DNA of 39,333 nucleotides, taken from positions 1 through 39,333 of IMG/VR virus record IMGVR_UViG_3300021373_000997; one strand, written 5' to 3'. A program made the position numbers and the translations under genes. This document shows positions 2,189-38,733 of the stretch, in pieces. Position 1 is the first letter of the stretch; every line of letters begins with the position of its first letter. This DNA is from a virus. Under the pieces are notes generated by a model. It saw only the letters and a list, made by a program, of their open reading frames with translations, had not been told where the DNA came from and searched no databases.

Positions 2189-2743
2189 ATGAGCATAAAA
2201 TGGCAGGGATTGTTCTTACTGACATTGCTGCCGTTCGCAGTAAATGCACAAGAACCTATTGTTACTGAGTCCACCACTACTAGCACTGTAACCACCAAAG
2301 GCGACATGACTACAAGAGTAGAGTCGCCTCCTCCTACCGCAATAGCCCCTCAAATTATATCTAACAGCAATTCAGATCTCTGTACCGTGGGTGTCGCTGG
2401 TGCTGTTCAAACGCAGATCTTAGGCATATCCGCTGGATCTACTGTCAGAGACATGAACTGTGAGAAGCTGAAGAACGCTAAGGTGCTCTACGACATGGGC
2501 ATGAAGGTCGCTGCTGTAAGTGTGATGTGCCAAGACGAGCGGGTATTCAAAGCCATGATGAACGCAGGAACGCCATGTCCATATGACGGACTCATTGGTG
2601 ATGCTGCAAAGCTCGCCTGGGAAACTGACACTGCCAATCAACAAGAGCTTGAAGTAAAAACAGGCATGGAGAGTTTGGATGAAAGGGAGATCGCTGGGGC
2701 TTCTGGCTTCTTTGGTGTTCTGCTCGCCCTACTGCTTATCTAA
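2189..2743 (+). CDS. Sec-exported cysteine-containing protein with hydrophobic C-terminus
   Basis: A 184-residue protein. The N-terminus is a textbook signal peptide: a lysine, a hydrophobic LFLLTLLPFAV core and a VNA|Q cleavage site. A Thr/Ser/Pro-rich linker (about 22-60) follows, then a compact domain with four cysteines (in DLCT, MNCEK, VMCQD and TPCPY), which in the periplasm could form two disulfides. The last residues (FFGVLLALLLI) are strongly hydrophobic and could anchor the protein in a membrane. From memory, proteins of this pattern recur without known function in marine phages; I could not check this. It heads the exported cassette and overlaps the next gene by 65 bp. Confidence 0.8.
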   Translation: MSIKWQGLFLLTLLPFAVNAQEPIVTESTTTSTVTTKGDMTTRVESPPPTAIAPQIISNSNSDLCTVGVAGAVQTQILGISAGSTVRDMNCEKLKNAKVLYDMGMKVAAVSVMCQDERVFKAMMNAGTPCPYDGLIGDAAKLAWETDTANQQELEVKTGMESLDEREIAGASGFFGVLLALLLI

Positions 2744-3548
2744 CCCCGTTACCTATGGGGCTACAGGCAATGCGGCGCAGGACGGTCTTAACTGGGTTAT
2801 GTCGCAGGTACTTCCTAATGCTGCGGGCCTTTCTGTGAATGGTGTCATCTATCAGTACACGGCTGTCAAAGAGACAGAGGACGACATGATTGTCTATGTT
2901 CAAAACGAGAATGCTGAGGGTGATGGTTACATCTTCCGTGAAGTCGATGATTGGTCTGGTTTGCCTAGTGAGACCATTAACAAACTCGTTTCAGTCAATA
3001 ACATACCGATCAGTGCATGGGGTGACGGCTCTATCGAGGTTGAGGGCAAGGGTTTTGTGGAAGATCCCAATGTCGTTTATACCTATAAGATTGATTCTTG
3101 TTACGACGCTCAGGCTGATCCCTCATGTCCAGGCTACGTCCCTCCCATCGAGTTGCCAGAAACAGAAGTGATTGATATTTACGATGCACTTGAGGATCAA
3201 GCCGTACTAGATGCGACAGAAGAGACAGATCCTGAGCTTTATGACAGAGACAAGAAACGCCAAAGGGAGGTAAAGGAAAGCCCTGACGAGCGATTAGAGG
3301 CGGCTTTGGCGGCGACTGAGAACGCATTGACAATGGCGGCGGCTGCAACGCAGGACGCTATGCTGATGAGCATGAGTCGGTTAGAGACTTTAAATCCTTA
3401 CTATCGTGCTGATATTCGAGGCGGGGTTTATCCAGAAACTCTGCAATTGCCTGTAAGTGATATACCTGACAACAAGGCTGGTTTACGTAATGGGCTGGCA
3501 CAACAGATTCTTCATGAGAAAATGGTGAACAGCCAATATGGAAAGTAA
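2679..3548 (+). CDS. Sec-exported protein with C-terminal helical region
   Basis: A 289-residue protein with a signal peptide (MKGR, then LGLLASLVF, likely cut near CLS|NP). ATG 2679 has GGAG 7 nt upstream. The region to about 150 looks beta-rich and contains a Cys pair (SCYDAQADPSC). Residues 155-235 are acidic then Ala-rich and helical (LEAALAATENALTMAAAATQDA), likely a coiled coil. The C-terminus is short and basic. The signal peptide is encoded in the same bases as the hydrophobic C-terminus of the previous gene in another frame. Function unknown; the setting suggests an envelope or surface role during infection, or a secreted virion-associated factor. Confidence 0.8.
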   Translation: MKGRSLGLLASLVFCSPYCLSNPVTYGATGNAAQDGLNWVMSQVLPNAAGLSVNGVIYQYTAVKETEDDMIVYVQNENAEGDGYIFREVDDWSGLPSETINKLVSVNNIPISAWGDGSIEVEGKGFVEDPNVVYTYKIDSCYDAQADPSCPGYVPPIELPETEVIDIYDALEDQAVLDATEETDPELYDRDKKRQREVKESPDERLEAALAATENALTMAAAATQDAMLMSMSRLETLNPYYRADIRGGVYPETLQLPVSDIPDNKAGLRNGLAQQILHEKMVNSQYGK

Positions 3549-3558
3549 GGGGACAACA

Positions 3559-4056
3559 ATGAAAGCTAAAATCATAGCAAGTGCTACGGTCATCATTTGT
3601 GCGCCAGCTATTGCAGAAGAGACCATCATTATGGGTAACGTAGAATCTAAGTGCGTCATCAACACTGATACCACTGGCGTCTATGGCAACCCGATTGCTG
3701 GAAAGCTCAGTACATCCACAGCGGATGGTGGCGTCGAGCCTGTCATTCGTTATGACGTGGCATTAGGGGGGTCTTATACAGCGCGTATCGTTGCGCCTAA
3801 TAGCTTTTCCTCATCGCCTACACTTACTGATACCGTTTTCTGGGAAGGATCATCCTCAGTCAAAGAAGTGTCAGACAGTCTTATGGCGGATTATGACGCT
3901 AACGCTGTGACTTACGAATACACCACAGAGTATGACTTACACACTGCTGGTACGACATGGTTCAGCGTCAGCAGTCTTGCTGAGTATGGATTTGGTAAGG
4001 CATATCCTGCAGGTGAATATCGTGCTGTCGTGATCGCGGAGTGCATCGCTAACTAA
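3559..4056 (+). CDS. Sec-exported pilin-like / spore-coat-U-like protein
   Basis: A 165-residue protein from ATG 3559 (AAGGGGAC upstream). The signal peptide ends AIA|EE. The mature part looks all-beta, with one Cys near the start (SKCVIN) and one five residues from the end (AECIAN), the layout of fimbrial adhesin and spore-coat-U (SCPU) domains, in which a disulfide ties the first strand to the last. The C-terminal strand pattern YPAGEYRAVVIAEC fits that family. The next gene resembles a PapD-type chaperone, which strengthens the reading. The SCPU assignment is inference from pattern; export is well supported. Confidence 0.65.
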   Translation: MKAKIIASATVIICAPAIAEETIIMGNVESKCVINTDTTGVYGNPIAGKLSTSTADGGVEPVIRYDVALGGSYTARIVAPNSFSSSPTLTDTVFWEGSSSVKEVSDSLMADYDANAVTYEYTTEYDLHTAGTTWFSVSSLAEYGFGKAYPAGEYRAVVIAECIAN

Positions 4057-4442
4057 TGAGGCGAGTGGTTGTAGTAATAGCTTGTCTTTGGAGTAGCGTA
4101 AGCACCGCGCATGAGATGCTGCCATCGCATCCGCAGTTGCGCCCATCTTACGTGTCAGGTGTTTTGCAGACTCAGATGCACTTATTCAATAAGCGGCAGG
4201 ACGTTGAGTACTATGAGATAGCTGTGTTTGATGAGGACTTCAGACCTGTACCCTTTGTTACGGGTTATCGGGTCATTCGATTGCAGTATTTAGAACAGCT
4301 CAAGTTCGATGTTTATGTGTTAGCAGATGACGCTGATCGTGCGGAGTACATATGCTCGAGGTCAAAACTGAGGGGAAATGGTTCTAATGGTGCAATGGTT
4401 GCCTCTAGGATTTGCTCACGGTTTGGAGACATAGCACGGTGA
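4056..4442 (+). CDS. Sec-exported PapD-like (pilus-chaperone-like) single-domain protein
   Basis: A 128-residue protein coupled to the previous gene by TAATG. The signal peptide MRRVVVVIACLWSSVSTA is followed by H. The mature domain resembles the N-terminal immunoglobulin domain of fimbrial chaperones: a strand with an Asn (MHLFNKR), then YYEIAVFDEDFRPVPF, then a basic VIRLQYLEQLKFDVYVL strand. It lacks the second PapD domain, so it would be a minimal chaperone or a PapD-fold structural protein. Two late cysteines (YICSRS, SRICSR) could pair. It lies directly after a pilin-like gene, as in chaperone-usher operons, but no usher gene is present. Confidence 0.6.
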   Translation: MRRVVVVIACLWSSVSTAHEMLPSHPQLRPSYVSGVLQTQMHLFNKRQDVEYYEIAVFDEDFRPVPFVTGYRVIRLQYLEQLKFDVYVLADDADRAEYICSRSKLRGNGSNGAMVASRICSRFGDIAR

Positions 4443-4858
4443 GATGCTTGGCTATCATGCTATTGTTTTTTTGTGCTTCTGCTATCGCACAGAACAGCTC
4501 GTTGAACCTACAGCTCCCTAGCGGCCCTACAAGTTATCAATCTGACAAGATCAGAAAGGGCGACATGGATTGTCAAAATGCTGTGGGTGGCGGTATGAAC
4601 TTAGAGTTTGGCGTCACTGGGATCATTAATAACGCCACGGGGCCATTTGATAATTATGACCCTATGTATCCTGAGCGCAAGGATGTGGGTGTATACGCTC
4701 GGATAGTGATCCCTCTGGATGGGCCAGAAGAGCGGATTAACTGCAACACCTTGTACCAACTGCTGTTAGAGAAAGAGAGATTAGAGGTGCAACGGCTAAG
4801 AGCAGAGCTACGCAATTTGCAGAGCCTACAGCAAGGTGAGGGCGGGTTTGAGAATTAA
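4439..4858 (+). CDS. Sec-exported small protein with C-terminal coiled coil
   Basis: A 139-residue protein starting at GTG 4439, which overlaps the previous stop as GTGA. The signal peptide is MRCLAIMLLFFCASAIA|Q. The mature part has a glycine-rich central stretch (NAVGGGMNLEFGVTGIINN), a DVGVYARIVIPLDGP strand and a Cys in RINCNTLY, and ends in a heptad-rich helix (LLLEKERLEVQRLRAELRNLQSLQQ). It is the fifth exported protein in a row. From memory, similar proteins occur in marine phages; function unknown. Confidence 0.75.
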   Translation: MRCLAIMLLFFCASAIAQNSSLNLQLPSGPTSYQSDKIRKGDMDCQNAVGGGMNLEFGVTGIINNATGPFDNYDPMYPERKDVGVYARIVIPLDGPEERINCNTLYQLLLEKERLEVQRLRAELRNLQSLQQGEGGFEN

Positions 4859-5370
4859 TGGAAGACCTGGAGAACATTGATGATCACGTAAAGGCTGCAG
4901 CAAAGCATGTGAAAGGCATGTCGTGGGGTGCTCGTATAGCGGCGGTCATGGGTCTGAGTAGCATAATCGGCACGTTATACGCTGGCTTTCTCATGTATCA
5001 GAAGGTGGAAGAAATCGCCAGCTTAGATTTAGGCGCTTATCAACAGCAGATGGAAGTCATGGATGCGAAGGTTACGGAGGCCGTTGATTATTCACGCGAC
5101 ATCAAGAATGGCTTGCGCGATGATATACTTAGGATCGAACAGCAGGCGGATCGGACGGAAGATTTAGTCCGCAGTAGCACTCGGGAGATACGTGATGCTA
5201 TGGATGTCATGCAGAAAGATACGCGAGAGATGATAGATGCCGCTGACGAGCGGTTTGAAACGCGCCGTGAGCAACTACGCACGTCACAGGATCAGGATAT
5301 TAAGGAACTGGAAGAGCGCTTGGAGGCGTTAGTCCAGAGAGCGTTAGACAACCCATTAGCGGATAAGTGA
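4858..5370 (+). CDS. Single-pass membrane protein with long coiled coil
   Basis: A 170-residue protein coupled by TAATG. A single membrane helix lies at about 28-48 (AAVMGLSSIIGTLYAGFLMY). The rest is highly charged and heptad-rich (residues 60-160, many Glu/Arg/Asp), a long coiled coil. The N-terminus is acidic without a cleavable signal. The topology, a short N-tail and long helical domain, resembles spanin-like or membrane-organising phage proteins, but no lipobox or second component is visible. Its position just before holin and lysozyme makes a lysis accessory role possible. Confidence 0.7.
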   Translation: MEDLENIDDHVKAAAKHVKGMSWGARIAAVMGLSSIIGTLYAGFLMYQKVEEIASLDLGAYQQQMEVMDAKVTEAVDYSRDIKNGLRDDILRIEQQADRTEDLVRSSTREIRDAMDVMQKDTREMIDAADERFETRREQLRTSQDQDIKELEERLEALVQRALDNPLADK

Positions 5371-5555
5371 TGAACACAGCAGAAGAAGCATTGAAACGAA
5401 TTGAGATCCATGAGGCTGAGTGCAAACTAATGCGCGAGATGATTGAAAAGCGCTTGGATCAAGGTGGCCTACGATTTAATAAGCTAGAGCGCATGATCAT
5501 GGCTATGTATCCATTCATTATCGCCTGCTTAGGCGCAGTGGAGTATTTCGCATGA
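5370..5555 (+). CDS. Small coiled-coil/membrane protein (homologue at 39126)
   Basis: A 61-residue protein starting at ATG 5370, overlapping the previous stop as TGATG. The N-terminal two thirds are helical and charged (EEALKRIEIHEAECKLMREMI); the C-terminal 15 residues (MYPFIIACLGAVEYF) form a short membrane segment. It aligns along its length with 39126-39323 (shared EAL..IE.HE.EC, LDQ...RF..LE, AV..FA). In allele B this gene follows the fibre partner directly, which shows where the secreted cassette is inserted or lost. Probably part of the lysis module. Confidence 0.75.
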   Translation: MNTAEEALKRIEIHEAECKLMREMIEKRLDQGGLRFNKLERMIMAMYPFIIACLGAVEYFA

Positions 5556-6028
5556 AGTTTGAAAACATCAAAGGATTGATCGGAGATCTTGCGCCTACTC
5601 TTGGCGCGGCTCTTGGTGGGCCTGTAGGTGGTGCTGCGGCTACTATGCTGGCTGATGTGTTGGGTTGTGATCCCACGCCTCAGAAGATAGAGAAAGCGTT
5701 GCAACAGGCTACCCCTGAGCAATTAGCCGAGATCAAAAAAGCTGAGCTTGACTTCGAAGTCAGAATGAAAGAGCTTGAAGTTGATGTCTTCGCGTTAGAA
5801 ACGAAGGATATACAACATGCAAGGGATTCTTTCTCAGAAGATTGGACGGCAAGGGCGATTGCCATTATGTCTATCTTGCTCTTTGGTGGCTATGTTTTGC
5901 TCGTTACTCTCCAGCCTGCTGATGACAACGACCTCAATGTCGTTAACCTGGTGCTGGGTTATCTCGGGGGCATCGTGTCTTCTGTGGTGAGTTTTTACTT
6001 TGGTGCTAGTAAGTCGGGGGGCAAATGA
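5552..6028 (+). CDS. Holin, GTA-type 3TM family
   Basis: A 158-residue protein overlapping the previous gene by ATGA. The N-terminus is Gly/Ala-rich (LAPTLGAALGGPVGGAAATML), then a charged helical middle (about 45-95), then two clear membrane helices (about 102-122, AIAIMSILLFGGYVLLVTL; and 130-152, VVNLVLGYLGGIVSSVVSFYFG) and a short SKSGGK tail. This is the architecture of the 3TM holins of gene transfer agents and many marine phages. It would open the inner membrane so that the lysozyme encoded next, which has no signal peptide, can reach the wall. Confidence 0.8.
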   Translation: MKFENIKGLIGDLAPTLGAALGGPVGGAAATMLADVLGCDPTPQKIEKALQQATPEQLAEIKKAELDFEVRMKELEVDVFALETKDIQHARDSFSEDWTARAIAIMSILLFGGYVLLVTLQPADDNDLNVVNLVLGYLGGIVSSVVSFYFGASKSGGK

Positions 6029-6444
6029 GCGAATTAATTGAACAGTTGAGAAGGCACGAGGGCGTAGAAACGCACGTCTATAAATGCACAGCGGGCTTTG
6101 AGACCATCGGTGTCGGTCGTAATATCTCTGCGTCTGGCTTGGGTCTTAGCGCCGACGAAATTGACTACCTGCTACAAAACGATATCAATCGGTGTGTACG
6201 TGAGCTTGCGTATGCGCTGGATTGGTTCTCTAGCCTAGATGGTGTGAGACAAGACGCTATGGTTAATCTCTGCTTTAACCTTGGTCTAAGCCGTCTCATG
6301 CAGTTTAAGCTAGCCTTAGATGCACTGGAGCGTGGTGAGTACCATAGAGCCGCTGCAGAGTTCCTAGACAGCCGATGGGCCAAGCAAGTTGGCAACCGAG
6401 CCATCGAAGTCGCGCACATGATCCGCATGGGCGAATATCCCTAA
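6025..6444 (+). CDS. Endolysin, T4-type lysozyme (GH24 muramidase)
   Basis: A 139-residue muramidase coupled to the holin by an ATGA overlap. It cleaves the glycan backbone of peptidoglycan at lysis. Catalytic signature: Glu12 (RRHEG), eight residues, Cys21 (YKCTAG), five residues, Thr27 (ETIGVGR). This is the known E-8aa-D/C-5aa-T form, with Cys in the place of T4 lysozyme Asp20. No signal-anchor-release N-terminus or signal peptide is seen, so export depends on the holin. Length is slightly under the 164 residues of T4 lysozyme. It is the last gene before the intergenic control region. Confidence 0.92.
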   Translation: MSELIEQLRRHEGVETHVYKCTAGFETIGVGRNISASGLGLSADEIDYLLQNDINRCVRELAYALDWFSSLDGVRQDAMVNLCFNLGLSRLMQFKLALDALERGEYHRAAAEFLDSRWAKQVGNRAIEVAHMIRMGEYP

Positions 6445-7494: not shown

Positions 7495-8158
7495 AAACAA
7501 CAGCATCCCAGAGAAGGTCAAGCAGGTACTCAGAGACATCGACGAGACACCTGAGACGGCTGGCTGGGATTGTCACGGAACCTATGTGCTGTATCACAAA
7601 ACCCTCGAAAGGGTAGCGGCGCAAGCGGGAGTCAAGTTTGATGCCCCTACTATTTTGATCAACGACATGGAGAAAAGGCGTGTGGCAATTCTCGTGCATG
7701 GACACCTCAACGGTCGAGAAGAATGGTCGATCGGAGAGGCGGCTGAGTACAACAACAAGAACTCCTATCCCTACGCTATGGCAGAAAAGCGGGCCAAGGA
7801 TAGGGTCATTCTCAAGCTCGTAGGTTTACACGGTCATGTCTACAGTGAGGACGAGGCTGACGATTACAACGAGCGTAATGACACCTACAAAGAAGAGGCT
7901 AATGTAGCCGCGAAGAAACAGTGGGTGGAATATATGGCATTGCTGCGGGATAACATCGACTGGTGTTATAACGCGGCGGCTCATATCGCTAACGATGATT
8001 GGTATGCGTTAGCGGGGCAGTGGAAAGACATAGACGACGACACAATGGCTAAGTTGTTCATTGCCACACGAGAGGGTGGGTTCTTTACCACCAAAGAGCG
8101 GGAGAAATGCAAAATTAATCCAGCCTTTAACAAAGCGAGAAAGGAGTTAGCGAAATGA
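7487..8158 (+). CDS. Putative single-strand annealing / recombination protein
   Basis: A 223-residue protein. Residues about 95-125 contain YPYAMAEKRAKDRVILKL and GHVYSEDEAD, a block I associate with Rad52/Sak-like or Erf-like phage annealing proteins. The N-terminal part (GWDCHGTYVLYHKTLERVA, then RRVAILVHG) is consistent with the beta-beta-alpha core of such proteins. The C-terminus is helical and basic. The SSB-like gene two positions downstream and the NinB/NinG genes later in the operon fit a recombination module. The family call is from pattern memory and uncertain. Confidence 0.5.
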   Translation: MSKNNSIPEKVKQVLRDIDETPETAGWDCHGTYVLYHKTLERVAAQAGVKFDAPTILINDMEKRRVAILVHGHLNGREEWSIGEAAEYNNKNSYPYAMAEKRAKDRVILKLVGLHGHVYSEDEADDYNERNDTYKEEANVAAKKQWVEYMALLRDNIDWCYNAAAHIANDDWYALAGQWKDIDDDTMAKLFIATREGGFFTTKEREKCKINPAFNKARKELAK

Positions 8159-34136: not shown

Positions 34137-34320
34137 TGTCACCTCGCCAACACGCACAGCATATTCCATATCTATCGAGCAAGGGCAGGTGGCCTCTGGC
34201 ACTGTGTCATTCTCGTCTCGTGCGATTAGTATCGTGCCCCAAGGCGGAGAGACTGTTAGCCTGGTTGAGGCCGTAACAGTCGATGGCGCGATTCAGAATC
34301 AGCCCAAGGAGTCCAACTAA
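34129..34320 (+). CDS. Small hypothetical protein of the fibre operon
   Basis: A 63-residue protein, all short beta strands (TAYSISIEQGQVASGTVSFSSRAISIV), no motif. It overlaps the 937-residue fibre gene by TAATG, so it is likely a co-expressed fibre partner. Confidence 0.6.
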   Translation: MISVTSPTRTAYSISIEQGQVASGTVSFSSRAISIVPQGGETVSLVEAVTVDGAIQNQPKESN

Positions 34321-37133
34321 TGGCTGTCAATTTAGGCATTAACATTCAGCGAAGTCCGAACCGTATCAACCAGCAGTTGAGAGAGGCGGGTGTCATTGGT
34401 AAGTTTCCGAAGTTACTGTTGGACTTTGCTGATAACTACTACTTAGCCAATGGCGGCAGTAAGACGCTGGCTAATGCAGTCACCCACGCCCGTGCTGGCA
34501 ATGCCACTATGACTGACGGCTATGGGCCTGAGCTTGTTACCAATGGTGGCTTTACAGGGAATGCAGATAACTGGACGCTAGTGGACTCTACATATCGCGA
34601 TAATGCTGTTGATGTTGCCACAACAAGCGCAGTGTTTCCTTTAACTCAAACAAGTACAACAGCAGAGGCTGGAAAGTCATACGTTGTAACTTTTCAAGCA
34701 CGCAACAAAACAGGCCCTGGCGCAATAAAGCCCAATTTTGGTGGTGTTGACGGAACTTTTAGATCAACTGAGGGATACCACACCGAAATAATTACCGCAT
34801 CGACTACTGGAGCTTTAATTTTTAAAACGGGCGGCTCGGCTTTTACTGGAACCATAGACAACGTAAGCGTCCGAGAGATGCCTGTTATCAAATGGGCACC
34901 GCATAATCTAGTGATTGGTTCAGAAGATCCTTTAGGTAGCGCATGGAGCGAAGTAAATGCAACTGTAGACGAAAACGCTACGGATCGACACGGCATTTCT
35001 AATAGCGCTGTTACTGTCACTAGCGGCACTGGTGGTGGCTCTAGCACTTCATCATACACTCGAAACAGTCCGTTTGTTTTTAGTAGCGGAGATCCTCACA
35101 CGGTTGCTGTGTATTTAAAAGCAGATCAAAGCACTGCGGCGGCAATATCTATAACCGCTTATGATGTACCAGTAACTTGTTTCTTCGATCTAGCAAGCGG
35201 CTCAGTTGGATACACTAATGGTAATGAAGATGCTGTTAGTATTACCGATGTTGGTTCTGGCTGGTATCTTTGTAAAATTACACGGTCTTCGAATGGTTCT
35301 GATTTGTCAGGACAAGTTCGCATAGGGCCAGCGGCAAATGATGGTTCACTTCCGACAGATATCAATGTGCCACAAGATGGTAGCGCGTCTATTATATTTG
35401 ATGACTTGCACATCTACCGCTCTGACTTAGGCGGCATGGTAGACAACCCTGAGAGTGGAGACTCATACGTCCCTACAACGTCAGCGGCTAAGTACCTCCC
35501 ACGCATAGGACACCACGTCTACAACGGCTCTGCATGGGTTAACGAGGGTGTACTGGCTGAGTCTGAGTCTAGGACTAATCTGATTGAGCGCTCTAATACG
35601 TTTGATTCAGTATGGAGTGCGACAGGATTATCTTCTCGCACAGCAAATGAGGTTGGGCCTGATGGCGTAGATAACTCTGCTTACACCCTAACAGCTAGCA
35701 CAGCGGCTGGTATTCATGCTAATGGTAACACTACTTTATTTACGTCGGGATCTGCTCATACAGGCTCTTGTTATTTTAAAAAGGGCACACAGAGATATGT
35801 AAAGCTAAGGGCTGGCAACACGGTAACATGGCCAGCAAATGTCACTTTTGATTTAGATAACGGTACTGTTGATACAGAAACTAACGGCACGGGAACTATT
35901 CAAGAAATAGGAAACGGCTGGTATAGGTGTGCAGTAACGGCGACAGCGGCTTCAACAGCAAACACAAACTTTAATATCTATATTTTAAATGATTCAAAGG
36001 CTGAGTCTTTTACTGGCGCAGGAACAGAGACGACTATTGTATGGGGCGCTCAACTTGAAGTAGGTGCAACACCCTCCAGTTTTATACCTTCGGACGATGG
36101 CACAAGCACAGTAACCAGAGCGGCTGAGACATTCACTATCCCATCAGCTAACCTACCGTGGCCTACGCCGCAGTACATTGGCTCTGAGTTGGTGACTAAT
36201 GGGACGTTTGATAGTGATGTTTCTGGGTGGAGTGCAGGGCCAAACGACTCTAGTATTTCTTGGAGTAGCGGACAGATTGATGTAACTAGATTAAATTCGA
36301 CAACATCTGGTTGTTTTACGGGCTATCAATTAGTTACTGGTTTAACAGTAGGAAAAACGTACTGGTTGCAAGGCGACATCATAACGGCAAGTCACGAGGC
36401 ATCTATAGTGCCTAGCGCCACGCTAGGATCAATTGGCTATGATGAGTCTTATATACGCTACTCCAACAATCAAGTAAATAACGGATTTAGTTCATTCCCT
36501 GTAACAGCAAAAGTAGCATTTGAAGCGACAGCAACGTCTATGTATATAGGATTGGGAGCAAGATCAAACCCCGCCGCAACAGCCACTTTCGACAACATCA
36601 GCGTCCGCGAGATCAACCCCCTGTCTGTCTCTATCGGCATGGAAGGTAGGGTAACGTTTGCTGATACTGATGTGGGGACTGAAGCTACTTTCGTACGTTG
36701 GTTTGGCGGCAATCAAAACCTAATCATTAACTCATTGCAGACAGGCGGTAGCAGAACGGGGCAAATACAGTTTAGACAAGAAGCGAATGACGTTAATGAT
36801 GCCGCAAACACATCAAATACTTATTTTTCTCCTGACATACTAGTGCCGTTTAATATGGCATCTCGTCATGGATCAACATTTGTTAACGGAGCAGAAAGCG
36901 GTGTAGCTCTCACGGCCAATACTACGCCTGTTTCTTTAGCTGATCTCTCTAGCACTGACTTGGAGTTAGCCTATAAGTACATGGGAACCATCTCAGAATT
37001 CCGTGTATGGGATAAGGACATCACCGATGCTGGGCTTGTAGAGGCAACCAATCCATCGCTAGAGCCATCCCTGAGTCTTGAATTTTCAGGACTTGGTACT
37101 AATAGTTTCACCGTCAGCGATTGGAGTGAATAA
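34320..37133 (+). CDS. Large multi-module tail fibre / adhesin
   Basis: A 937-residue protein built of beta modules: a first ELVTNGGF...DNVSVREM module (about 70-190); a NLVIGSEDP...HIYRSDLGG module (about 195-380); a RTNLIERSNTFD...WGAQLEVGATPSSFI...TRAAETF module (about 415-600); a second ELVTNGTF...FDNISVREIN module (about 620-765); and a LamG-like C-terminal domain (about 768-937, ending FTVSDWSE). These are carbohydrate-binding modules typical of marine phage fibres. The first 50 residues are probably an anchor. The same modules recur in the fibres at 33 and 37135, showing module shuffling. Confidence 0.8.
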   Translation: MAVNLGINIQRSPNRINQQLREAGVIGKFPKLLLDFADNYYLANGGSKTLANAVTHARAGNATMTDGYGPELVTNGGFTGNADNWTLVDSTYRDNAVDVATTSAVFPLTQTSTTAEAGKSYVVTFQARNKTGPGAIKPNFGGVDGTFRSTEGYHTEIITASTTGALIFKTGGSAFTGTIDNVSVREMPVIKWAPHNLVIGSEDPLGSAWSEVNATVDENATDRHGISNSAVTVTSGTGGGSSTSSYTRNSPFVFSSGDPHTVAVYLKADQSTAAAISITAYDVPVTCFFDLASGSVGYTNGNEDAVSITDVGSGWYLCKITRSSNGSDLSGQVRIGPAANDGSLPTDINVPQDGSASIIFDDLHIYRSDLGGMVDNPESGDSYVPTTSAAKYLPRIGHHVYNGSAWVNEGVLAESESRTNLIERSNTFDSVWSATGLSSRTANEVGPDGVDNSAYTLTASTAAGIHANGNTTLFTSGSAHTGSCYFKKGTQRYVKLRAGNTVTWPANVTFDLDNGTVDTETNGTGTIQEIGNGWYRCAVTATAASTANTNFNIYILNDSKAESFTGAGTETTIVWGAQLEVGATPSSFIPSDDGTSTVTRAAETFTIPSANLPWPTPQYIGSELVTNGTFDSDVSGWSAGPNDSSISWSSGQIDVTRLNSTTSGCFTGYQLVTGLTVGKTYWLQGDIITASHEASIVPSATLGSIGYDESYIRYSNNQVNNGFSSFPVTAKVAFEATATSMYIGLGARSNPAATATFDNISVREINPLSVSIGMEGRVTFADTDVGTEATFVRWFGGNQNLIINSLQTGGSRTGQIQFRQEANDVNDAANTSNTYFSPDILVPFNMASRHGSTFVNGAESGVALTANTTPVSLADLSSTDLELAYKYMGTISEFRVWDKDITDAGLVEATNPSLEPSLSLEFSGLGTNSFTVSDWSE

Positions 37134-37229
37134 GATGACTAAGCAATTTTCAAACTACTCTGATCTGATTACGTTTACCCGAGCCTCTGGAGGCCATGCG
37201 TTGCGCCCTGTTAGCTATGGGGATGAGCT
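37103..37229. repeat. 127-bp exact direct repeat, right copy
   Basis: Identical to bases 1-127. It spans the end of the 937-residue fibre gene and the first codons of the next fibre. Allele B continues from here while allele A continues from the left copy. Confidence 0.95.
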
Positions 37230-38733
37230 ATCGCCTAATGCCACTTTTACAGGAAACATTGACGGTTGGACAAATGTAAGTTCCGCGGGCACAGTCACAG
37301 CAGAAAACAATGAATTAAAAATTGTTACGACAAGTACAAATGGTGCAGTTCTAAACTCATCTATTACTCTTGAAGTGGGCAAAATTTACACAGTTAGTGC
37401 GACATCGACATCTGCAACAGCGAGCCACATGCTACGAATGGGAAGCACAAGTGCTACTTCGACTAATATTTTAGCGGGGACACAATCCTCTGTTCCAAAG
37501 ACTTTTACGCATACTTTTGTTGCGACAAGCACTGTTCTTTGGATTTATCTTCGTGTTCTTGGTGCTGGTACAGTTACATGGGACAACGTATCCGTCAAAG
37601 AAGTCACCTTCGACGAATCAGACGGCACCCTAATTTTATTCGAGCATCCCGATGACGTCCCTCGCGTAGAGTGGGATAGCGCAGGTAACAGGCTGGGTTT
37701 GCTGGTGGAGGAGTCTAGGACTAATCTGGTTACTTACTCTGAGGACTTTAGTAATGCGGCTTGGAGCAAGACACGCGGTGATATTGCAAGCGTTACAATT
37801 ACTGATCCAGCGGGACAGCAAAATGCGTTTTCATGGACTTCCAATGATTTTTCAGAGTCGTATTTAGCAGACAATACAACCATATCCTCGGGCGCAACAG
37901 TAACCTTTAGCGGCTTTGTAAAAAAGAACACTGCTGATTATTGTCACTTGTTAGTCTGGGACGCGTCTGCAAATGGTTGTCGGGTATGGTTTGATTTAGA
38001 CGGCGGACAAGTAGGAACAAACACTTCGTTTGGTAGCACTTTTACTGTCAGTGACTCGTCTATTACAGAATATCCAAACGGCTGGTATAGATGTTCAATG
38101 ACGGTTACGACTTCTGGAAGCACGACAGCGCAAGCAAGATTTCAGATGTCCAATAGTGACGGCGTTATAAACTCTAGTGTTGGAAAATCTATTTACATTT
38201 TCGGCGCTCAAGTCGAACAAGCCTCATTCCCCACAAGCTACATCAAAAGTAACTCAGGCAGTACGACAACACGCTCTGCCGACGTAGCGTCTATCCCCGT
38301 GGCTGACTTTGGGTTTAATGCTGATGAGGGAACTGTAGTTTGTCAGGTTCAGCACTTTACTACTGAGTCCTCAACAGCTCATGCGCCGTTTGGTTTTGAT
38401 GATGGCACATCTAATAACAGAATGTGGTACTACCAAAATAAAGGGCAATGGATTGGCTCTGTTTCTGGATCGACTACATTTAGTGTCGATGCCACTGATC
38501 CAACCGAAGGCGTAGAAACAAAAGTCGGAGTTACTTACAAAAAAGACGATTTTACACTCTACCTTAATGGCTCCAGTATCGGCACTGATACAAGCAGTAA
38601 TGTGCCAGTAGTAGACACGATGGGAATAGGCAGAGTCGGTGCAAGCGGTACAGAGCTTAACGGCCACATTAAGTCCATCAAATACTACCCACGCCGCCTA
38701 ACTAACGCACAACTACAGGATCTAACATCATGA
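37135..38733 (+). CDS. Tail fibre / receptor-binding protein, allele B
   Basis: A 532-residue homologue of the fibre at 33-1586, same start context (GGAG 8 nt before ATG). Shared: the first 30 residues, the frame around EHP..VPRVE and NRLGLLVEE..TNLVTYSEDF, FGAQVEQASFPTSYI, SADVASIPVADFG, and the end LNGHIKSIKYYPRRLTNAQLQD. Different: the first module (about 33-150), the second module core and the LamG-like domain (about 400-505). Glycan specificity probably differs between A and B. Confidence 0.75.
   Translation: MTKQFSNYSDLITFTRASGGHALRPVSYGDELSPNATFTGNIDGWTNVSSAGTVTAENNELKIVTTSTNGAVLNSSITLEVGKIYTVSATSTSATASHMLRMGSTSATSTNILAGTQSSVPKTFTHTFVATSTVLWIYLRVLGAGTVTWDNVSVKEVTFDESDGTLILFEHPDDVPRVEWDSAGNRLGLLVEESRTNLVTYSEDFSNAAWSKTRGDIASVTITDPAGQQNAFSWTSNDFSESYLADNTTISSGATVTFSGFVKKNTADYCHLLVWDASANGCRVWFDLDGGQVGTNTSFGSTFTVSDSSITEYPNGWYRCSMTVTTSGSTTAQARFQMSNSDGVINSSVGKSIYIFGAQVEQASFPTSYIKSNSGSTTTRSADVASIPVADFGFNADEGTVVCQVQHFTTESSTAHAPFGFDDGTSNNRMWYYQNKGQWIGSVSGSTTFSVDATDPTEGVETKVGVTYKKDDFTLYLNGSSIGTDTSSNVPVVDTMGIGRVGASGTELNGHIKSIKYYPRRLTNAQLQDLTS

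Follow-up and report, generated by a model that had tools for sequence, protein, structure and literature searches.

A cassette of six genes (A to F), of which the first five encode predicted exported proteins and the last a predicted membrane-anchored protein, was identified in IMGVR_UViG_3300021373_000997, a viral record of 39,333 bases that was analyzed over its full length (the window). The first five genes keep a fixed order in related viral contigs, C and D are predicted to encode a pilin-like protein and half a pilus chaperone, no usher accompanies them, and the cassette commonly lies near phage lysis genes. The best reading of the sequences is that the module may join two units that also occur separately, A-B-F and an usherless C-D-E. 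The cassette probably builds something in the host envelope late in infection, where the host is taken as Gram-negative and late expression is deduced from gene position. We tentatively propose, as a possibility still short of an even chance, that A to F form a late exported envelope module in or beside the lysis cassette that helps to dismantle the envelope or to time lysis.

The phage of the window is siphovirus-like and encodes terminase, portal, capsid, tape-measure, distal tail and J-like proteins. Genes A to F are located between a tail protein gene (24-1586) and a lysis cluster containing a holin-like gene and a lysozyme gene (Table 1). The first-pass annotation of this DNA had described five adjacent, overlapping open reading frames, A to E, all of which are present. 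Genes A and B overlap by 65 nt and genes D and E at 4439-4442, and a TAATG is shared by C and D at 4056 and by E and F at 4858. The start of C is most likely the ATG at 3559, and that of E is best set at the GTG at 4439, not at the TTG at 4412. The five-gene set is real, but the unit is larger than described: gene F belongs to it, being next after E in 99 of the 110 E-bearing loci among the matches listed. Elsewhere in the record, the C-terminal parts of three tail proteins (24-1586, 34320-37133 and 37078-38733) all match phrog_5939, which makes this a repeated tail-protein family near both record ends.

Table 1. Genes of the cassette and of the adjoining lysis cluster in the window
Gene	Position	Strand	Length (aa)	Features
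A	2189..2743	+	184	Signal peptide, Thr/Ser-rich linker, domain with four invariant Cys, hydrophobic C-terminal tail
B	2679..3548	+	289	Signal peptide, N-terminal Cys-pair domain, acidic linker, conserved C-terminal segment
C	3559..4056	+	165	Predicted pilin-like beta-sandwich; C32/C162 pair; C-terminal GxYxAxVxxxC strand
D	4056..4442	+	128 (including signal peptide)	Predicted single-domain PapD-like protein (half-chaperone); C100/C120 pair
E	4439..4858	+	139	GTG start; N-terminal SLxLxLP peptide, C45/C102 pair, C-terminal coiled coil
F	4858..5370	+	170	One membrane helix (residues ~30-47), coiled coil, C-terminal NPL; i-spanin-like layout
G	5367..5555	+	62	Small lysis-cluster membrane protein with a hydrophobic segment at its C-terminus (from sequence)
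H	5552..6028	+	158	Holin-like membrane protein; phrog_1544
I	6025..6444	+	139	T4-type (GH24-like) lysozyme, judged by sequence

IMG/VR was scanned with A and with E, and at least 600 matching stretches were obtained for each, nearly all of which encode relatives. The order A-B-C-D-E was found in 110 of 110 E-bearing contigs with more than 3.5 kb of upstream sequence among the matches listed; the loci were drawn from the best 80 hits per scan, and the sample therefore leans to close relatives of the queries. Protein identities across the cassette loci go down to approximately 36%. Chance would not produce so constant an order, which shows that the set is maintained by selection across phages. 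The statement of the first-pass annotation that phages rarely export such a set is not supported as written, since hundreds of marine viral contigs carry a relative of A or of E, and relatives of A alone exceed 600 contigs. Strong purifying selection acts on all six genes, with dN far below dS (dN/dS of approximately 0.03-0.08 against locus L004 and at most 0.13 against locus L009). No close DNA relatives were found in GenBank phages. The proteins A and E match phrog_20531 (E = 2.6e-15) and phrog_37374 (E = 5.4e-6), respectively, and C and D weakly match phrog_25895 (E = 0.005) and phrog_25455 (E = 0.024); all four families are labelled as being of unknown function and are not described as one system. 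Searches of A to E against Pfam, NCBIfam and PDB sequence profiles gave no useful match, with no Pfam family for B and no known family for E beyond phrog_37374, and no earlier description of the cassette was found in the open-access literature.

Signal peptides and lipoproteins were called by simple heuristic rules. The signal peptides previously claimed for the five proteins were recovered in all cases (5/5), and homologues were mostly flagged as well (A 46/50, B 44/53, C 42/44, D 49/50 and E 43/44; for F, 15/34). Among the 59 non-overlapping open reading frames of the window only two others were positive: F, which has a membrane helix in place of a cleavable signal, and one tail protein, for which the call is probably false. 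Outside A to E, this heuristic detected no run of signal-peptide genes in the window. Paired cysteines, also noted at the first reading, are kept in all five families: four are invariant in A, two are nearly invariant in B, and two are invariant in each of C, D and E. This pattern would fit periplasmic, disulfide-bonded proteins, as expected. It also bears on the possibility that the proteins coat virions passing through the opened envelope, as receptor-binding or protective decoration. Tail genes are often found upstream of the cassette, as in the window, which is consistent with such a coat; however, tailed phages are assembled in the cytoplasm, yet A to E are exported and keep their paired cysteines, membrane anchors are predicted for F and A, and no virion proteome containing these proteins was found in the open-access literature. 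We consider a virion coat very improbable.

The fold of D was predicted by AlphaFold2 with a pLDDT of 90.5 (50 sequences). When the model was compared with the PDB, the top seven hits and most of the first 25 were PapD-type chaperones, including SfaE, FimC, DraB, Caf1M, SafB and FaeE (E from 3.5e-4, TM approximately 0.5-0.6). The profile of D, compared by hhalign with five E. coli K-12 chaperones taken from single annotated regions and with pilins as the control, gave a probability of 79.5% over chaperone domain 1 versus 9.9% for the control. Fold and profile thus agree with the likeness to the N-terminal domain of pilus chaperones that the first-pass annotation had suggested. Because D and its alignment stop at the chaperone G1-strand region, where domain 1 ends, D is predicted to be half a PapD chaperone. 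Of the two anchor residues of the chaperones, Lys112 is placed by this weak alignment near the conserved Cys120 of D, and no conserved arginine is found at the position of Arg8. Foldseek comparison of D with viral structures gave no useful named relative. Of 50 phage homologues of D (window 4056-4442), 49 have a predicted mature N-terminus of His and then Glu or Gln; this is kept neither by most chromosomal relatives nor by the Vibrio-phage relatives. A copper site at this position was considered and left as a note, as no other histidine of D is conserved.

The model of C (pLDDT 88.4, 44 sequences) has as its best PDB matches the PapG pilin domain, FimG and CfaB (E from 1.9e-3, TM approximately 0.4-0.5). 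Chaperone-usher pilins therefore lead the fold hits, in line with the proposed resemblance of the third gene to fimbrial pilins, but more weakly than the chaperones do for D, and the N-terminal extension of C is short. The N-terminal VxI/FxGxVxxxC segment aligns with the N-terminal motif of pilins (82.6% over 27 columns; control 1.4%). In the model, the VxIxGxVxxxC segment is of low confidence and unpaired, as an unfilled donor strand would be. The Pam pilin model of NCBIfam scored far below its cut-off (E = 0.0023), which was treated as chance, and this model had no match in two genomes carrying C-D-E. The first-pass annotation had staked its proposal on related folds and on the co-occurrence of the genes; chaperone and pilin folds are predicted, and the genes co-occur. 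It had also recorded the lack of an usher in the set, and none is present in the window, where no usher-sized protein is left unassigned and the large open reading frames examined have phage assignments.

The genes A, B and F also occur apart from C-D-E. A hydrophobic C-terminal tail is present in 46 of 50 homologues of A, and a C-terminal NPL in all 34 homologues of F. Relatives of A were detected by tblastn in pelagiphages and roseophages, in which A is followed by a longer exported protein that is annotated as carbohydrate-binding in several cases; in phage HTVC115P this protein is matched by the profile of B (E = 1.2e-4). The A- and B-like genes of these phages are followed by genes for short F-like membrane proteins with a C-terminal NPL, and A, B-like and F-like genes are found without C-D-E in Pelagibacter phages. 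Several pelagiphages and roseophages carry the A and B-like genes near a lysozyme or M15 peptidase gene. In Roseobacter phage CRP-810, a short lipoprotein-like open reading frame (L117:7615-7875) lies directly upstream of A and itself matches the A profile weakly (E = 7.8e-6).

The genes C, D and E were found in this order without A or B in Vibrio phages, where C and D of phage Brizo each have matches in 179 records. These include T5-like phages and phages of approximately 60 kb and 83 kb. The window profiles match Brizo with E-values of 2.4e-7 (C), 3e-6 (D) and 1.5e-14 (E). In the T5-like Vibrio phages, C-D-E is located immediately ahead of the holin and endolysin genes. A 67-aa lipoprotein-like open reading frame (L120:5293-5496) lies directly after E in Brizo, with relatives at the same place in L122 and L123, and could be an o-spanin or a part of the module. 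The N-terminal SLxLxLP peptide of E, with its alternating hydrophobic residues, is present in 42 of 44 homologues. Relatives of E without a recognized adjacent C or D occur in a few other phages, e.g., Klebsiella phage Miami.

Chromosomal copies of E were detected by a bacterial genome scan in Nitratireductor, Aureimonas, Chelativorans, Photobacterium, Sphingobium and others. When some chromosomal copies were included in the profiles, C-D-E was contiguous in 35 of 39 fetched genome loci, a few of which are phage-like contigs in metagenome bins and some of which overlap each other; in most of the remainder all three genes are present and overlapping long open reading frames shift the order of starts. 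Up to three tandem copies were observed, and some loci carry an extra pilin-like gene after E. C-D-E is thus also an undescribed chromosomal operon in alphaproteobacteria. A class-wide search found E in only 2 of 385 genomes, and a search at the family level was used in its place. In the family of Nitratireductor, 25 of 200 genomes (completeness not stated) carry E and 23 of 200 carry an usher; the two share three genomes, approximately as expected by chance, and an usher gene is missing from 22 of the 25 E-bearing genomes. Within the limits of genomes that may be incomplete, chromosomal C-D-E is therefore not usher-dependent. Several neighbours were observed at these loci. In several Nitratireductor and Chelativorans loci (L213, L218, L222 and L224, near position 8000), C-D-E lies just before a long gene that by sequence resembles MttB-type methyltransferases, with a corrinoid-type protein upstream in L213. 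In Sphingobium (L223), C-D-E adjoins tolQ-tolR-tolA-tolB-pal-like genes. In Photobacterium chitinilyticum, C and D are separated by the gene of a 313-aa protein (L215:6650-7591), a possible adhesin whose N-terminus is signal-like, and an EAL-domain-like gene is located downstream of E.

On bacterial chromosomes C-D-E is kept at a distance from lysis genes, which argues against lysis as its sole role. The same observation, and the extra pilin-like gene of some loci, fit a surface or periplasmic function, and the cassette might form a layer at the surface or in the periplasm of the living infected cell that blocks superinfection or sticks cells to their neighbours. C and D are related in fold to the proteins of adhesive pili, and the Pelagibacter-phage counterparts of B are annotated as carbohydrate-binding. 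A precedent is given by phage curli operons that have no host counterpart and for which superinfection defence or sibling capture was proposed (PMC9599517, PMC7029224). However, no usher or other outer-membrane channel was found, which leaves export to the surface unexplained, no Csg-like protein was found, and little time would remain for protection given the location among late and lysis genes. A layer of this kind is judged rather unlikely.

The proposed role in envelope breakdown or lysis timing is suggested by the recurring gene context. In 37 non-redundant A-to-E loci, in which lysis genes were sought with only a few query families, an endolysin was found within 4.5 kb in 19, a holin-like gene in 21, and either in 27; the other 10 have no recognized lysis gene nearby, and some have a PhoH or terminase gene as neighbour. 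In the L017 clade, the cassette is flanked by an o-spanin-like lipoprotein and GH19-type endolysin pair and by a holin-like gene. In L143, a relative of gene H precedes a GH19-type endolysin, and homologues of the gene I lysozyme are present beside the cassette in other loci. This context suggests a function at the envelope late in infection. Of the roles that the first-pass annotation had offered, superinfection exclusion and decoration of virions are not supported as written, the recurring context being a lysis cassette. Full replacement of the spanins was considered and rejected, as the L017 clade keeps its o-spanin-like lipoprotein upstream of A. Because some loci have no lysis genes nearby and one clade has this lipoprotein, an accessory role is more likely for the module than spanin substitution.

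The same context is consistent with a role restricted to lysis control, in which a periplasmic complex senses the envelope and delays or triggers lysis through F or the holin. The T4 RI antiholin is a parallel for lysis control by envelope sensing. Both F and A have predicted membrane anchors with periplasmic parts, and a phage protein that tunes the timing of lysis through the holin has been described (PMC11657625). Yet six genes exceed the needs of known lysis-control systems, and no one holin family accompanies the cassette throughout. Pure lysis control is, on this evidence, improbable.

According to the reading preferred here, an accessory envelope module acting at lysis, A to E would cross the inner membrane via Sec. 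In the oxidising periplasm, the half-chaperone D would hold the incomplete pilin-like fold of C until D is displaced by either the SLxLxLP strand of E or an N-terminal strand from a second C molecule, which gives rise to C-E complexes. The complex would then stretch from the inner membrane to the outer layers, tethered by coiled coils in E and in F, which is membrane-anchored, by the membrane tail of A and by the B N-terminal domain. At lysis, the structure could aid envelope breakdown or set its timing, in a way comparable to spanins or their accessories. Both the use of the E strand as donor and the contact between E and F are guesses drawn from sequence features.

A bolder and rather unlikely form of this reading is that C-D-E is an undescribed usher-independent chaperone-pilin machine of phages and bacteria, in which the half-chaperone D hands the pilin-like C to the coiled-coil partner E, and that tailed phages joined it to an envelope-spanning A-B-F unit as a new lysis apparatus. 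If the preferred reading is right, an unnamed exported module of three or more genes, located in or near the lysis region, would be common to a large marine phage group and to 179 Vibrio phage records, phages would have a new way of acting on the Gram-negative envelope next to the spanins, and chaperone-pilin folds would be shown to need no usher, whether in phages or on chromosomes. The reading is testable now, as cultured Vibrio phages carry C-D-E.

Three known systems were compared with the cassette. The spanins (Rz/Rz1) resemble it in the i-spanin-like topology of F and in the proximity to holin and endolysin genes; the cassette differs in its five extra exported proteins, in the fixed NPL end of F, and in that no convincing lipoprotein open reading frame was found by simple rules beside the lysis genes of the window. 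Curli (type VIII secretion) operons have been identified in pelagiphages and in the methylophage Melnitz, and lysis control is one of the roles proposed for them (PMC7029224, PMC9004378, PMC9599517). Like the cassette, they are multi-gene exported operons of the cell-surface type in marine tailed phages; the folds differ, and A and B-like genes are also carried by phages of the same hosts. Curli identity was considered since pelagiphages carry curli, and it was rejected since no relatives of CsgG, CsgF or CsgA/B were found among A to E with Pfam, NCBIfam and PDB-sequence profiles. The chaperone-usher pili (FimC/PapD; FimA, FimG, PapG, CfaB and CsuA/B) share with the cassette the predicted PapD domain-1 fold and the profile of D, the more weakly predicted pilin-like fold and the N-terminal motif of C, and the gene order of pilin followed by chaperone. 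The cassette differs from them in having no usher, in a chaperone of one domain instead of a two-domain protein of approximately 200 residues, in the presence of E, whose family is unmatched, with C and D, and in its location in or beside phage lysis genes. As both the usher and the two-domain chaperone are missing, the cassette was not filed as a member of the chaperone-usher systems; it is a reduced variant of the chaperone-pilin kind, possibly put to a new use in phages.
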